A stretch of DNA of 64,000 nt, taken from assembly GCF_000150955.2 (NCBI RefSeq), contig NC_011689.1:558001-622000 (forward strand), in the 5' to 3' direction. Positions 50,665 to 57,261 of the stretch are shown here, piece after piece. This stretch comes from Phaeodactylum tricornutum CCAP 1055/1. Its lineage: Eukaryota; Bacillariophyta; Bacillariophyceae; Surirellales; Neidiaceae. The notes beneath the pieces are model-generated. The model did no database searches. It was not told the DNA's origin and was given only the letters and a program-made list of their open reading frames with translations. Numbering within the stretch: position 1 is the stretch's first letter; the number at the start of each line of letters is the position of its first letter. The translations under genes and the position numbers were made by a program.

Positions 50665-52846
50665 ATGAAACTCCTCTTGTCGGCTTTTTCCTTTTTCCTC
50701 GCTCCGGCTCTCGGTAAGTACCTTAACAAGTGATGGTGATTCTTGAGCTTTCTTCATGCCCGTGAGTCTGCTAGAATTTGACCTGAATGGCTTAAAACAC
50801 GCCCCGATCGTTTCGGCATTGTTGGATACGAAATCGCATCATCTCTAACACTTCATACCTTCGAAAACAGCCGTCACCGCAAATACCAAGGATCAATACC
50901 ACCTTCGTGACGATGACCACATCGGGCCTGCCATGTGGGTCTTCGGAGATGAAGGCCTGAAAATTTACTCACCGGATGGCAAGAGTTTGCGCAAGTCCAC
51001 CTCGGCTGAACGAGTCTGCCACGAAACGTCAGGATATCGAGGAAGCACCGAAGTAACCTTGAGCTGCTCTTTCTACGACGTTGTTTCTGATGGAAAGAAG
51101 TTCGTCTGGGCCGCTGTCTCTCGTGGATCCTCTAAAATCGATGTGTTTTCCATCGATACGGGCGACATCGTTGGTTCATTCGAGACTTGCAACACCCCTC
51201 GTGACCTCGAGTACCATCCTCTACGGGATGAGATGTGGGTCCGCTGCCTCGGAGTAACGGAAAACGAAGTTAGTTACATGGACGTCTTTTCTGTCCAGTC
51301 TCCTACTGTCGACTCCACCACACGAATCCTGATGTCTGACAACACTACTGACAACTCGTACGGTTACATGGCCATCGATAACACTATGGGTGATGTGGGC
51401 TATACCACAATGTGGGGAAGTCCCTTCTTGTACAAAATTGGGCTGAGCGAAAAAGTTGTTCTTGAAAAATTTGATATTGAACTCGCTCACGGAGGTTACG
51501 AACTCGCTTACTCACCCGTGAACCAACACATCTTCGTTCGTGCCCTTACTTGTTGCACATGCGGTTTTGAAGGAGCCGATCTTGGTGTTGATTGCGGTCG
51601 GTACGGAACGGAACTGGTGAATATAACCACAGGCCCCTCTGCGTAAGTTGCCGGACCTTCCAAGCACTGGCTAAACCATTTTGATATCGGCCAGACAAAG
51701 CCTGTAGAACGAACCTGATTGACTTTGTTTCATTTCTTTATTTCCTCAGTGGACAGAATAACGTTGATGGGCAATGCGGGCGCTGTGATGGGAGCGTGGC
51801 TGATACGCTTGGTGTGTACGAGTTTGACACTAATGCAGAGACTTTTGTTGGAAAGCACTTGATGGAAGACGGACTTGGTGGGGACCCGTTTGCCTCCCCC
51901 GATGGAAGTAAGTACCTTAGAGTATTTGGGCCACAGTGAGCCGTGTCTCTTCCTGAATTTTCCTTCCTCTGACACTCATATATCCGACAACAAAACAGAG
52001 TATATAGTCATGTTTGGCCGCAATGGAGGGCGATCAGTTCGCGTTTTGGAGGCTGGAAACCCCGGCAAAGTATCGGTAAGGACGAGGTCAAAGCGATCAC
52101 GGGATACAGCGACGTGTACAATGGTGCAACAGTTATTGATAGATCACTGATTGATTTCTTACCCACGCGTCAATTTTCGCTTTGTGTCGTAGACCGTTGC
52201 CTTTGATATCAAACTGGATTTCAATACAACCAGTGTCGAGGACGATGCCGTCTTCAATGACTTTGCTTTTATTCAAGACGGTGAGCGCGAGATGATTGTC
52301 CTTGCTTCGGGAAACGAAAACAAGCTTGTGCTGATCGACCCCAAGTCTAGCAATCCTAGCACTAGCTACATCTCTTTCCGTGACGGTGACATTTCTTCCG
52401 ACGGCACCCGGCGCCAAGTTGAGTGGGCGGTGGGTACCAACTATGTGTGGGTCGATGGGGCTGATGCGTCTGAAGTGTACATTATCGACGTTGGCACGAA
52501 ACAGGTTGTCGAGACCCTAACCAATGTCAACAGTACCAAGATGGTTTTTGTTCAAAACTACGAGCGCACCCGTCTTCAGAACATGATCACCGGTGAATCT
52601 GGTTTTGGATCCGATTCTTCGTCGACGGAGCGCGCCTTTGGCGCCAACTACGAGGACGACAACGATATTGACGCAGTAGGAATCATCAGTCTAATCCTCG
52701 CTACTGTTGCTTTGGCCGTCGGCGTGGTGAACTTGGTGGTCATGAAGAACCGAAAGCCGCAGTCTCATGGCCAGCCTACATCTTCCATCAACACGTCCTC
52801 CAAGATGGATGAAGAAGTGTCGCTCGGCAGCAAGAACGTTGCGTAA
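50665..52846 (+). CDS. Type I membrane protein with beta-propeller-like ectodomain, five exons
   Basis: Five exons: 50665-50713, 50871-51642, 51750-51907, 51999-52075 and 52193-52846. Introns have GTAAGT or GTAAGG donors and AG acceptors; joined, they keep one frame and give 569 aa. The first exon is almost only a signal peptide (MKLLLSAFSFFLAPAL). The ectodomain repeats strand-rich units ending in YDVVSDGKKFVWAAV, YMAIDNTMGDVGYT, VEWAVGTNYVWVDGADASEV and similar, with the xVWVxD pattern seen in YVTN/WD-like propellers. Cys-rich parts (TCCTCGF; GQCGRCDG) are likely disulfide-bonded. One membrane helix (AVGIISLILATVALAVGVVN) precedes a short cytosolic tail. No enzymatic motif is seen; a cell-surface receptor or adhesion role is a guess. 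This is the most intron-rich gene of the window. Confidence 0.85.
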
Positions 52847-53373: not shown

Positions 53374-56049
53374 ATGGCGAACGGAGGTACGATTGCGGGC
53401 GACACCAAGTGGAAAATCTTGCTATTCGGTGCCATTCCCGACACACAAGTGTTGCTGGAGAAGCTCCACGAAATTCACGATGGACCCGCTGGCCCTTTCC
53501 ATGTTGCCTTTGTTACAGGCTTTGTCGAGAATGTGCGAGTTTTGGAGAAGGCGAATGCGCCGATTCCAGTTTACTTGTATCCATTTGCTCAATATCGGAA
53601 TGCTGGAATCGACTGCGACTGGCCATCGAACTCCGCGAGGCCATCGGATCCATTGTCGCTCTCATCGCAGTTATCTACTCCAGAGACCACACATGGGAAA
53701 CCTCCCTGTGCGACTCGCCTTTACGATGCACTCCGTATTGCGAACAATTTTTTCATCCTTGGTGATTGTAGCCGTACGTCTTCTGCCTTATTGTACCGTC
53801 TACCGCTTTCCGCTGGAAGCGGCGCCGCCAGCTGCGGTAGTCCCATATGCGAAACAAGCCAAGGCTCACCACATTCCACATCACCTACTTCCCCAAAGAC
53901 ACCGCTCATTGTTTTGGTCTGCCCCGGAATTGTCTCAAATATCCCGCTAATTATGAATCAGCTGGCGTTGACCACCACCAATCACGGTTGTGATTTGTTT
54001 TTCAGTACACAGGCTGCCGTCGGGGTTCAGGATGTTTTGGACGAGGATCCTAAAGATATCACGCTCGACTACACAACCACAGTTTCCCGTCTCGTACAAG
54101 CTTATCAGCCACGCTACCATGTCATCGCGGCCAATAAGTATTGCTCCTCCCATTCTTTTTCGTACTCAATGGATGATGTCACCCAAAGACTGAGCGCCAG
54201 AAATTCCCGCGTTGGTCGTTTCTTAACCCTAGCACCTTGTCGTGACGGACCCTCACGAGGGTCGGACAAGTTTGTTCATGCGCTAAGTCTACAGCCATCT
54301 TTCACTATGACAAGTCTCGATTGGCAACGCGAGCGACCTGGTTTTGTTTTGGCGAATCCATTCCAGCACTTGGCCTTGGAAGCGTCAACTGAAGCAGAGG
54401 AGAGTGACAACTATGTCAGTGGCACGACTCCTCGTCGCTTGTTTCCTCCTACGTCTCCTCTGACGATTCGAGAATACGATGACGATCCCCGAACGGGCAG
54501 AAATGGTTTTCATAACGACGGCGCTCAACTGCAAAGCCAATCACAATTCTTTCGAGAATATCGTGTGTCCATAGATGAATCCAATCGAGTACACGTTAGT
54601 TCGCACACGTTCTACAGCAATCTTTCCTCTATTTCATTTTGGCAGCATCTCAGTCAAACACCAATCCGTTTCGCCACTGAACTGTTCATGCCGGTCGGCT
54701 ATCCGTATTCTGTTAGAGAAGGATACCTTTCCTATCAGATTTACGATAGTATTCAGGGTCTATCGAGCTATTTGAGAGCCGTCCTTTGTTCTGCTCAAGT
54801 CTTACAGGCAGCCGGTGTCGGCGATGCAAACGCGACGGCTATCATGGCGGCCCTCACGTGGGCGTTAAAAGACGGACTCGGGATGATAGGTGGACTGATT
54901 TTTTCCTATGGAGTTGCTTCTCATTTGGATGCATACGTCAAAGAGTTTCGGCTCTTTGCCGACGTCATTAACGATGTCGGTATGCTACTCGACATGCTGG
55001 CTCCGTATGTTCCACGCGCCGACTTGATTTGGATATCGTCTGCTGCAACTCTCTGCAAAGTCATGTGTGGGATTGCCGCGGGTGCGACGAAAAGCAGTAT
55101 TACCCAGCATTTCGCTTTGCAAGGTAATATGGCCGACCTTAACGCGAAAGAAGCAACCCAGGAGACGCTGGTTAATTTGATTGGTATGGTTTGTGGTGTC
55201 ACGCTAGCCCGGTATTTGTCGCAATTGGAAGCGGGTAACGAGGAAGGCGACACTGACCGCATAGGTTACAGATCCTGGATTCCATGCATCTCCCACGATT
55301 CGATTCAATGGATGGTATTTACCATCCTTACCTTATTACACATTTGGTCCAACTGGAAGGGTGTCAGCTTATTACGCCTAGAAACATTAAATCGGGAACG
55401 AACCAAGGTTGTGCTTTGTGCGGCTGGGCTGTGGAGGGCACTCGTCCCAGATTGTGAAGCGTTGCGCAGTGAAAAGTACGCTGAATTGGGCTTGCTACGG
55501 CAAGAAATGCTGCTCGAGACACTTCAAAAATGTATTGAGAATATCCCAAGACCAAACGACATGCGCGAGTCGCTGGCATCGTCCACGTGGGATTTGCTGA
55601 TGCCGACTCGTTTGGTTTTGCACGCGCGACTAAAAGACATGATTGCTATTGACTGGACTGCAACAAAAGATTTTGTCAACGAAAAGTACGTTGTTGTTTT
55701 AAGCGATCGAGGACGAGCTCTTGTCTGCCTACTGACGGGGGCAGCGCCGATGGATGAGTTGAAAGCTTTTATGCACGGTCTATTAATTCTCAAATGCCTA
55801 GACTCGATTGGAAGAAAATTAAATTTGGGTGACGTTGGTCAGCGAAGTGAGCTGGTCCGTCAAACTCAACAACAAATCAATATGCTGTTTAATCCAAGCT
55901 GGGCATCACAGTCAGCTCAAAGTGAGAACACCTCTGAGCCTCTCTCGTTTTCGAAGGAGCTGCGAGCCAAGGGGTGGGATGTGGATGGCCGATTATATTT
56001 GGGCTTTCCCCGTCGACGAAGCCAGTGGATGCCAGAAAAGGCCGATTGA
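53374..56049 (+). CDS. Fusion of CWF19L1/Drn1-like N-terminal domain with RUS (DUF647) domain
   Basis: One uninterrupted frame of 891 aa from the ATG at 53374 (MANGGTIAGDTKWKILL). Residues 10 to about 310 resemble the N-terminal metallophosphoesterase-like domain of CWF19L1/Drn1 proteins: WKILLFGAIPDTQVLLEKL, then GPFHVAFVTGFV, YLYPF, and particularly PRYHVIAANKYCS followed by RVGRFLTLAPC and DKFVHALSLQPSFTM, which track CWF19L1 'PRYHFAALE...TRFIALANVGN...KYLYAFSIVPM'. After a linker, residues from about 420 on match the RUS/DUF647 family: TELFMPVGYPYSVREGYLSY, YDSIQGLSSYLRAVLCSAQV, AALTWALKDGLGMIGGLIFS and GMLLDMLAPYVP. RUS proteins are plant and eukaryote membrane-associated proteins (RUS1/RUS2 in UV-B and auxin responses). 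CWF19L1 relatives act in lariat debranching. I know of no such fusion from memory, but cannot check. Confidence 0.82.
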   Translation: MANGGTIAGDTKWKILLFGAIPDTQVLLEKLHEIHDGPAGPFHVAFVTGFVENVRVLEKANAPIPVYLYPFAQYRNAGIDCDWPSNSARPSDPLSLSSQLSTPETTHGKPPCATRLYDALRIANNFFILGDCSRTSSALLYRLPLSAGSGAASCGSPICETSQGSPHSTSPTSPKTPLIVLVCPGIVSNIPLIMNQLALTTTNHGCDLFFSTQAAVGVQDVLDEDPKDITLDYTTTVSRLVQAYQPRYHVIAANKYCSSHSFSYSMDDVTQRLSARNSRVGRFLTLAPCRDGPSRGSDKFVHALSLQPSFTMTSLDWQRERPGFVLANPFQHLALEASTEAEESDNYVSGTTPRRLFPPTSPLTIREYDDDPRTGRNGFHNDGAQLQSQSQFFREYRVSIDESNRVHVSSHTFYSNLSSISFWQHLSQTPIRFATELFMPVGYPYSVREGYLSYQIYDSIQGLSSYLRAVLCSAQVLQAAGVGDANATAIMAALTWALKDGLGMIGGLIFSYGVASHLDAYVKEFRLFADVINDVGMLLDMLAPYVPRADLIWISSAATLCKVMCGIAAGATKSSITQHFALQGNMADLNAKEATQETLVNLIGMVCGVTLARYLSQLEAGNEEGDTDRIGYRSWIPCISHDSIQWMVFTILTLLHIWSNWKGVSLLRLETLNRERTKVVLCAAGLWRALVPDCEALRSEKYAELGLLRQEMLLETLQKCIENIPRPNDMRESLASSTWDLLMPTRLVLHARLKDMIAIDWTATKDFVNEKYVVVLSDRGRALVCLLTGAAPMDELKAFMHGLLILKCLDSIGRKLNLGDVGQRSELVRQTQQQINMLFNPSWASQSAQSENTSEPLSFSKELRAKGWDVDGRLYLGFPRRRSQWMPEKAD

Positions 56050-56238: not shown

Positions 56239-57261
56239 CTATTGCTCACCCATACACGTAGGAAGATCCAGATGCAAAGATTCGGCACAGAGCGTTTTGT
56301 TGACGTTGCGACCTAAGCACTCTGGGCCAATAGCTGGCAGCAAGAATTTGAGTTCTGCACATTTGAAAGCTTGAGGATCAACTTGCTGTACGTTGATCAA
56401 TACCGCCAGGGGACAATGGTCCGAATCATCGTCAATGGCTTGTGAATTATTCACAGTTTTGTATTGAGTGATTCCCCCAAACCAGTTTGTCTCTTCTGGA
56501 GAAGCGACGCTAAAGTTAGTGCCAATTTGTCGATTCATTTCCAATAGGGTGGCCACCATGGCTTGTTCAGTCGCCATGTTTAGGTTGTTTTGCTGCCAGT
56601 TGTACTCCATAGCTTGTAGTATTGCCCGTCGATTCTGTATAGAAAAGCTAGTTGCCGAACCCCCACGACCATCCAATTTGTTCCACGGTATGGCAACGTA
56701 ATCTAGATGGTCAAAGTCGTGGACGTAGTGTTGCGCATTAGAACATAATACACCATGTCCCTGGAAGGTGAGAACGCGATCGGCTGCCGCCTGCTGCCAC
56801 ACCCAAGGATCATTCCAAACGGCGGCGGCTTCCACGTAATGCAAACGTGGTGGAAGGCTTTTGAGTTCTACTCGAGGATGCTCTCTAATCATTCTCTTGA
56901 CGCCCCGATGATATTCCAGCACTAGGGACTCGAACCATTCGATGTCATTCACCAGAATCTGTACGACCCAATCGTGCGGTATCCGAGTCAAGATATTACT
57001 GATGTAAACGTCGTACGGTACGGCTGTCCAATCTTCCCTTTGGAAGAATAGTCCAATGGCGGCGCCGCTCCATACTTGTCCGTAAGGGGACCTTTCGCCG
57101 GGACAGTGGACGGCAAAGGAGCTGGAGTCCCGTGTGGTCGAAGACAAATTACTGTTGGATCCGATCCTGGCAAAAAGTACCCATTGTGCGACGATCACAG
57201 CAATAAGAAGACGTGTGGTCCAGACCTTTGTTGTCTGTATGGAGTACACGGTGGCCATCAT
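56239..57261 (-). CDS. DUF5672 glycosyltransferase-like type II membrane protein
   Basis: 340 aa from the ATG at 57261, which is followed by a second ATG. A short cytosolic tail and one signal-anchor helix (RLLIAVIVAQWVLFARIG) place the body in the Golgi lumen. The body matches DUF5672 (PF18922-like): WVVQILVNDIEWFESLV, then DRVLTFQGHGVLC, DHLDYVAIPWNKLDGRGGSA and SFSIQNRRAIL. These proteins have a GT-A-like layout and are thought to be glycosyltransferases; donor and acceptor are unknown. Several N-x-S/T sequons are present, and a Cys-rich end (CAELKFLLPAIGPECLG; LCAESLHLDLPTCM) suggests disulfides. It is near the GT31 genes but not adjacent. Confidence 0.8.
   Translation of the reverse strand: MMATVYSIQTTKVWTTRLLIAVIVAQWVLFARIGSNSNLSSTTRDSSSFAVHCPGERSPYGQVWSGAAIGLFFQREDWTAVPYDVYISNILTRIPHDWVVQILVNDIEWFESLVLEYHRGVKRMIREHPRVELKSLPPRLHYVEAAAVWNDPWVWQQAAADRVLTFQGHGVLCSNAQHYVHDFDHLDYVAIPWNKLDGRGGSATSFSIQNRRAILQAMEYNWQQNNLNMATEQAMVATLLEMNRQIGTNFSVASPEETNWFGGITQYKTVNNSQAIDDDSDHCPLAVLINVQQVDPQAFKCAELKFLLPAIGPECLGRNVNKTLCAESLHLDLPTCMGEQ

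Follow-up and report, generated by a model that had tools for sequence, protein, structure and literature searches.

We are highly confident that the window (the whole stretch of 64,000 nucleotides analysed here) contains a real fusion of a CWF19L1-type N-terminal domain and a RUS protein. We propose, with less assurance, that the fused domain serves as a docking module and not as an enzyme. The parts of the gene are as follows, in window coordinates:

53374..56049, + strand: the fusion ORF (891 aa), a single open frame ending in the stop codon TGA at 56047-56049, by translation
53407..54390, + strand: CWF19L1/Drn1-type N-terminal domain (residues 12-339), metallophosphoesterase-like by homology, from BLASTP and hhalign
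54391..54654, + strand: polar linker (residues 340-427), in frame and without Met
54655..55416, + strand: RUS/DUF647 domain PF04884 (residues 428-681), E 1e-76, with a match to PDB 9sdh at E 8.3e-46
55678..55989, + strand: RUS C-terminal domain PF24160, UVB_sens_C (residues 769-872), E 1.3e-5

The initial annotation had described a single unbroken frame of 891 residues, and translation bears this out. From the ATG at 53374 to the TGA, the frame runs for 891 codons with no internal stop, compared with 30 and 34 stops in the remaining two forward frames over the same stretch. Among 1000 base-shuffled versions of the ORF, no open run exceeded 251 codons. Codon scoring used a small table derived from four other ORFs of the genome, one CWF19L1 and three RUS paralogues, which are homologous to parts of the fusion. 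With the ORF divided into 15 blocks of 60 codons, this table ranked the fusion frame first of six in 13 blocks. The two exceptions were residues 61-120 and 121-180. Codon score was uninformative across linker residues 337-395, with values of 0.02, -0.01, and -0.40 in three frames.

The linker region is strongly polar, with D/E/S/T/P/N/Q/G/R/K making up 68% of residues 336-428. Consecutive in-frame methionines occur at residue 312, inside the CWF19 domain, and residue 439, inside the RUS domain. None falls between them, so the RUS part could start separately only from within one of the two domains. A motif scan of the ORF found no AATAAA, and ATTAAA was present just at 55386 and 55818, both in the RUS half. 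A simple pattern returned six in-frame intron-like candidates, all of which were within the two halves and none of which spanned residues 336-428. Given the absence of a stop, of AATAAA in the ORF, and of a Met from 312 to 439, either half alone would not easily be made. From the methionine gap, the missing AATAAA, and the lack of an intron candidate across the linker, we infer a single transcript and take its product to be one translated chain. Although 53837-53898 is bounded by GT..AG, its length of 62 nt is not divisible by three, and we discarded it as an intron for that reason. Residues 144-167 (53803-53874) constitute an insert without counterpart in the alignment to the genome's own CWF19L1, located inside the weakly coding stretch 121-180, and could conceal an unrecognised intron.

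Assigning the N-terminal half depended chiefly on using the genome's own CWF19L1 as a stepping stone. This 856 aa protein (L007:3295-5865, C21:56.3-58.9 kb) was identified via its CwfJ_C domains (CwfJ_C_1, E 8.2e-25; CwfJ_C_2, E 8.4e-8), and its best PDB matches were worm (E 6.4e-29) and human (E 1.4e-28) CWF19L1. These matches were carried by the C-terminal part, with the N-domain stretch contributing no more than 11.0 bits to the worm match and 1.5 and 4.5 bits to the human ones. Two RRM stretches (PF00076) lie between its N-domain and its CwfJ_C domains. When residues 1-400 of the fusion were searched against the genome, the three matching rows corresponded to two loci, the fusion itself and a second gene located at C21:56.3-57.2 kb. 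BLASTP aligned residues 12-350 with the N-domain of the genome's own CWF19L1 at E 7e-22, with 93/358 identical positions (26%), and MAFFT gave 33% identity. The Smith-Waterman score of the fused domain was 234, far above 300 shuffles (mean 36, maximum 56). Three sub-blocks individually scored 110, 72, and 108, relative to maxima of 47, 49, and 47 in 300 shuffles. Neither the linker (49 versus a shuffle maximum of 50) nor the RUS half (33) scored above every shuffle against the same protein.

Direct searches with the N-terminal half gave little signal. There was no Pfam match for this half at E ≤ 10 when searching with the whole protein, and residues 1-400 alone had none to any Pfam family at E ≤ 1, a range in which HMMER filters remove most matches above about 0.1. 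Residues 1-400 alone also had no PDB match at E ≤ 10. A two-row profile of the diatom N-domains had worm CWF19L1 as its sole PDB match at E ≤ 10, which was not significant (E 0.45). In a single hhalign comparison, the diatom profile aligned with human CWF19L1 145-317 at 77% probability and E 2e-5. The alignment to human CWF19L1 stops at about human residue 275, such that the copied piece corresponds approximately to human CWF19L1 1-275. Hence, a CWF19-like match does exist in the form of the genome's own CWF19L1, although Pfam profiles are blind to the domain. The N-terminal block had been said to follow CWF19L1 closely: the homology held, but at 26% (BLASTP) or 33% (MAFFT) identity the closeness did not.

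The fusion and both homologies stood as annotated, whereas the implied extent of CWF19L1 did not. Only the N-domain is present, with both CwfJ_C_1 and CwfJ_C_2 absent from the fusion protein at E ≤ 10 in Pfam, so a full CWF19L1 identity was rejected. For the same reason, the predicted protein is not a member of the CWF19L1 family and should not be filed as a spliceosome-recycling factor. It has in common with human and yeast CWF19L1/Drn1 (PDB 8ro1 and 8ro2, chains L1) a non-catalytic N-domain ending in PRYH, RF-x-x-LA, and V-x-x-NP(F/Y) blocks, but CwfJ_C_1 and CwfJ_C_2 are replaced by a RUS protein.

We compared the fused domain with the genome's own copy of DBR1, the lariat-debranching enzyme, at eight metal-ligand positions, which we take to be the Dbr1-family motifs of metal binding and the catalytic His. 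Seven of the eight were substituted in the fusion, and the one shared residue, the His at column 170, falls where the alignment is gapped and doubtful. The genome's own CWF19L1 was substituted at six of eight positions relative to DBR1, and the two that were kept are in the same poorly aligned stretch. Moreover, the fusion protein had no PF00149 match at E ≤ 10 in Pfam. We rejected an active phosphoesterase on the basis of the seven substituted ligands, and the fused N-domain is predicted to be non-catalytic, that is, catalytically dead. The substitutions agree with the status of Drn1, which is called a homologous, non-catalytic partner of Dbr1 in the excerpted text of PMC10470207. Relative to DBR1 itself, the fusion differs in its changed ligands, its lack of the DBR1 C-terminal domain, and its lack of a PF00149 match.

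The genome encodes separate copies of the related factors. CwfJ_C_1 and CwfJ_C_2 each occur at two genome sites, C21:58 kb and C5:83 kb. CWF19L2 is present (best PDB match CWF19L2, E 7.6e-38), as is DBR1 at C7:832 kb (PF05011, E 7.1e-22; PF00149, E 3.1e-10), including its C-terminal domain. Since a complete CWF19L1 exists separately, as do CWF19L2 and DBR1 genes, the domain in the fusion is an additional copy that has diverged, and the ordinary functions of these genes look covered. The fusion and the genome's own CWF19L1 are about 555 kb apart on the same contig, and this distance together with 26% identity led us to reject a recent copy.

The full RUS/DUF647 block claimed for the C-terminal half was confirmed, with PF04884 scoring 258.2 bits (cut-off 28.3) at residues 428-681 and PF24160 scoring 26.0 bits (cut-off 20.7) at residues 769-872. 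The sole significant match of the fusion to a solved structure in the PDB was RUS family member 1 (9sdh). The fusion shares a complete RUS plus C-terminal domain (PF04884 and PF24160) with human RUSF1 (9sdh) and plant RUS1-6, but has about 400 extra N-terminal residues with a CWF19L1-type domain. The genome's three remaining RUS loci have ORFs without likeness to residues 1-395, with all three comparisons scoring below the shuffle mean.

Searching the genome (27.45 Mb in 88 contigs) revealed four RUS loci. In comparisons with the printed piece of human RUSF1, the fusion's copy scored highest at 423 (41.0% identity over 227 residues), followed by copies C27a (395; 37.9% of 227), C9 (278; 40.4% of 213), and C27b (231; 27.4% of 219). 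The order was the same for matches to 9sdh, with E of 8.3e-46, 1.1e-44, 2.4e-35, and 1.6e-21, respectively. The window copy is therefore nominally the nearest to animal-type RUS among the four loci, by a narrow margin over C27a. Plant RUS3 is taken as the ortholog of animal RUS in the part of PMC8146622 consulted, and excerpts of PMC10289200 describe RUSF1 as predicted to reside in the ER membrane, with its function unknown. The fusion had hydropathy peaks of at least 1.4 in a 19-residue window only at residues 176-194 and 551-569, so that the RUS half contains just one of them, and a membrane seat for the protein is putative. One RUS paralogue (L003:934-2547, - strand, C27:236-238 kb) has an N terminus that, by eye, looks like a secretory signal leading into an A-F motif, a feature of diatom plastid proteins. 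This paralogue is possibly a plastid RUS.

How might the two halves work together? We propose that a RUSF1-like RUS protein gained an N-terminal duplicated, diverged copy of the non-catalytic domain of CWF19L1/Drn1. The fused domain would be a docking module inherited from a DBR1 partner rather than an enzyme, holding DBR1 or a similar partner beside the membrane that seats the RUS part. The RUS part would thereby be joined with the handling of branched RNA or DBR1. With ordinary functions apparently covered by DBR1, CWF19L1, and CWF19L2, the fused copy may have been free to take on a docking role. RUS proteins are reported to work via protein contacts, such as that of AtRUS2 with the DUF647 domain of AtRUS1 (PMC13115044, in part). 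Some kind of docking role for the fused domain is probable, whereas DBR1 being the docking partner is a guess that we regard as rather unlikely. The model as a whole, namely a membrane-associated RUSF1-like chain with a non-catalytic domain that docks DBR1, is put forward tentatively, at somewhat less than even confidence.

Several observations motivate the choice of DBR1. Excerpts of PMC4346921 report that DBR1 is bound by human CWF19L1 aa 1-268, that the DBR1 C-terminal region (aa 241-544) accounts for most CWF19L1 binding, and that the C-terminal half of CWF19L1 binds DBR1 very weakly. The fusion retains nearly this human DBR1-binding piece, as its alignment ends at about residue 275 versus the boundary at aa 1-268 (PMC4346921). 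Also, the genome encodes DBR1 together with its C-terminal domain, to which Drn1 is reported to bind. Drn1-Dbr1 binding is reported to fail between yeast and human (PMC4346921, in part), so binding to DBR1 is not to be assumed for the fusion. In the text available from PMC10470207, human Drn1 gave no gain in DBR1 kinetics in vitro. Localization also counts against the model, as human DBR1 and CWF19L1 are described as chiefly nucleoplasmic, with CWF19L1 shuttling to the cytoplasm (PMC4346921, in part), whereas RUS is considered a membrane protein. Among 249 columns aligned with human and worm CWF19L1 pieces, agreement with the animal proteins was confined to the fusion in 22 and to the genome's own CWF19L1 in 40, with both agreeing in 34. 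The fused domain has diverged further by this measure, such that its DBR1-binding surface may be lost. AlphaFold2 single-sequence models of the fusion had a mean pLDDT of 31.2 for residues 1-345 and 39.0 for residues 396-891.

The same divergence bears on a different possibility, in which the N-domain was kept to dock or stabilise some non-DBR1 partner. It could, for instance, dimerise the RUS part or act as its regulatory cap, with no link to lariats. We consider this a credible alternative with about a third of our confidence. Low identity to the genome's own CWF19L1 (26%; 22 versus 40 animal-only columns) and loss of the CwfJ_C domains are both in keeping with it, as is precedent for additions specific to particular RUS proteins, since Chlamydomonas RUS1 has a C-terminal domain of low conservation (PMC13115044, in part). 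However, a non-DBR1 partner would not predict that the copied piece stops near where the human DBR1-binding fragment ends.

It is fairly improbable that the fusion arose by chance and is nearly neutral, with the RUS half acting as RUSF1 and the N-domain as a passenger. No second species bearing the fusion was found in viral and prokaryote collections, and residues 61-180 are weak in coding signal and contain segments that the genome's own CWF19L1 lacks, as a passenger might. Nevertheless, the 891-codon frame has stayed open despite about 26% identity between the CWF19 copies, and residues 1-140 and 240-345 are well above chance, which together suggest a fold under constraint. Finally, it is very improbable that two adjacent genes or an assembly join were misread as one. 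The linker's codon signal at 337-395, by itself uninformative, leaves some room for this. Against it stand the lack of a stop, of AATAAA in the ORF (with ATTAAA confined to the RUS half), and of an in-frame Met from 312 to 439, and two pieces joined by accident would be unlikely to share a frame.

We also looked for relatives of the fusion beyond its own genome. All four scans of viral contigs (using the whole protein, the N-domain pair, the RUS alignment, or the window/human RUS pair) confirmed none, and neither did two of two scans of a genome-contig collection (window/human RUS pair and N-domain pair). The fusion had no match to phage records by tblastn. These scans used a few short patterns on viral or prokaryotic collections, and their misses are uninformative about diatoms. 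In open-licence literature, we found no report linking RUS/DUF647 to CWF19L1 and none of CwfJ in diatoms. Among the papers listed as matching at least two of the family names, the only one with DUF647 (PMC9966272) has no mention of CWF19, CwfJ, or Drn1. The domains are known, but their architecture appears to be new insofar as we did not find it described in the open-licence literature.

RUS proteins occur in most eukaryotes and are described as having a largely unknown molecular role in excerpts of PMC13115044 and PMC10289200. Because nature has fused one of them to the CWF19L1 domain that binds DBR1, there is now a specific candidate partner for RUS proteins and a testable hint at their role. 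Taken to its extreme, the fusion might be a "Rosetta stone" wherein RUS acts with DBR1 or CWF19L1, at the ER or nuclear envelope, to handle branched RNA or splicing factors being recycled, and the alga has joined both, although we consider this reading improbable.

Two further ORFs flank the fusion gene in the window. Upstream, a 184-aa ORF (52292-52846, + strand) has a hydrophobic stretch near its C terminus, as judged by eye, and no Pfam match at E ≤ 0.01. Adjoining the fusion gene downstream is a convergent 340-aa ORF (56239-57261, - strand), which likewise had no Pfam match at E ≤ 0.01.
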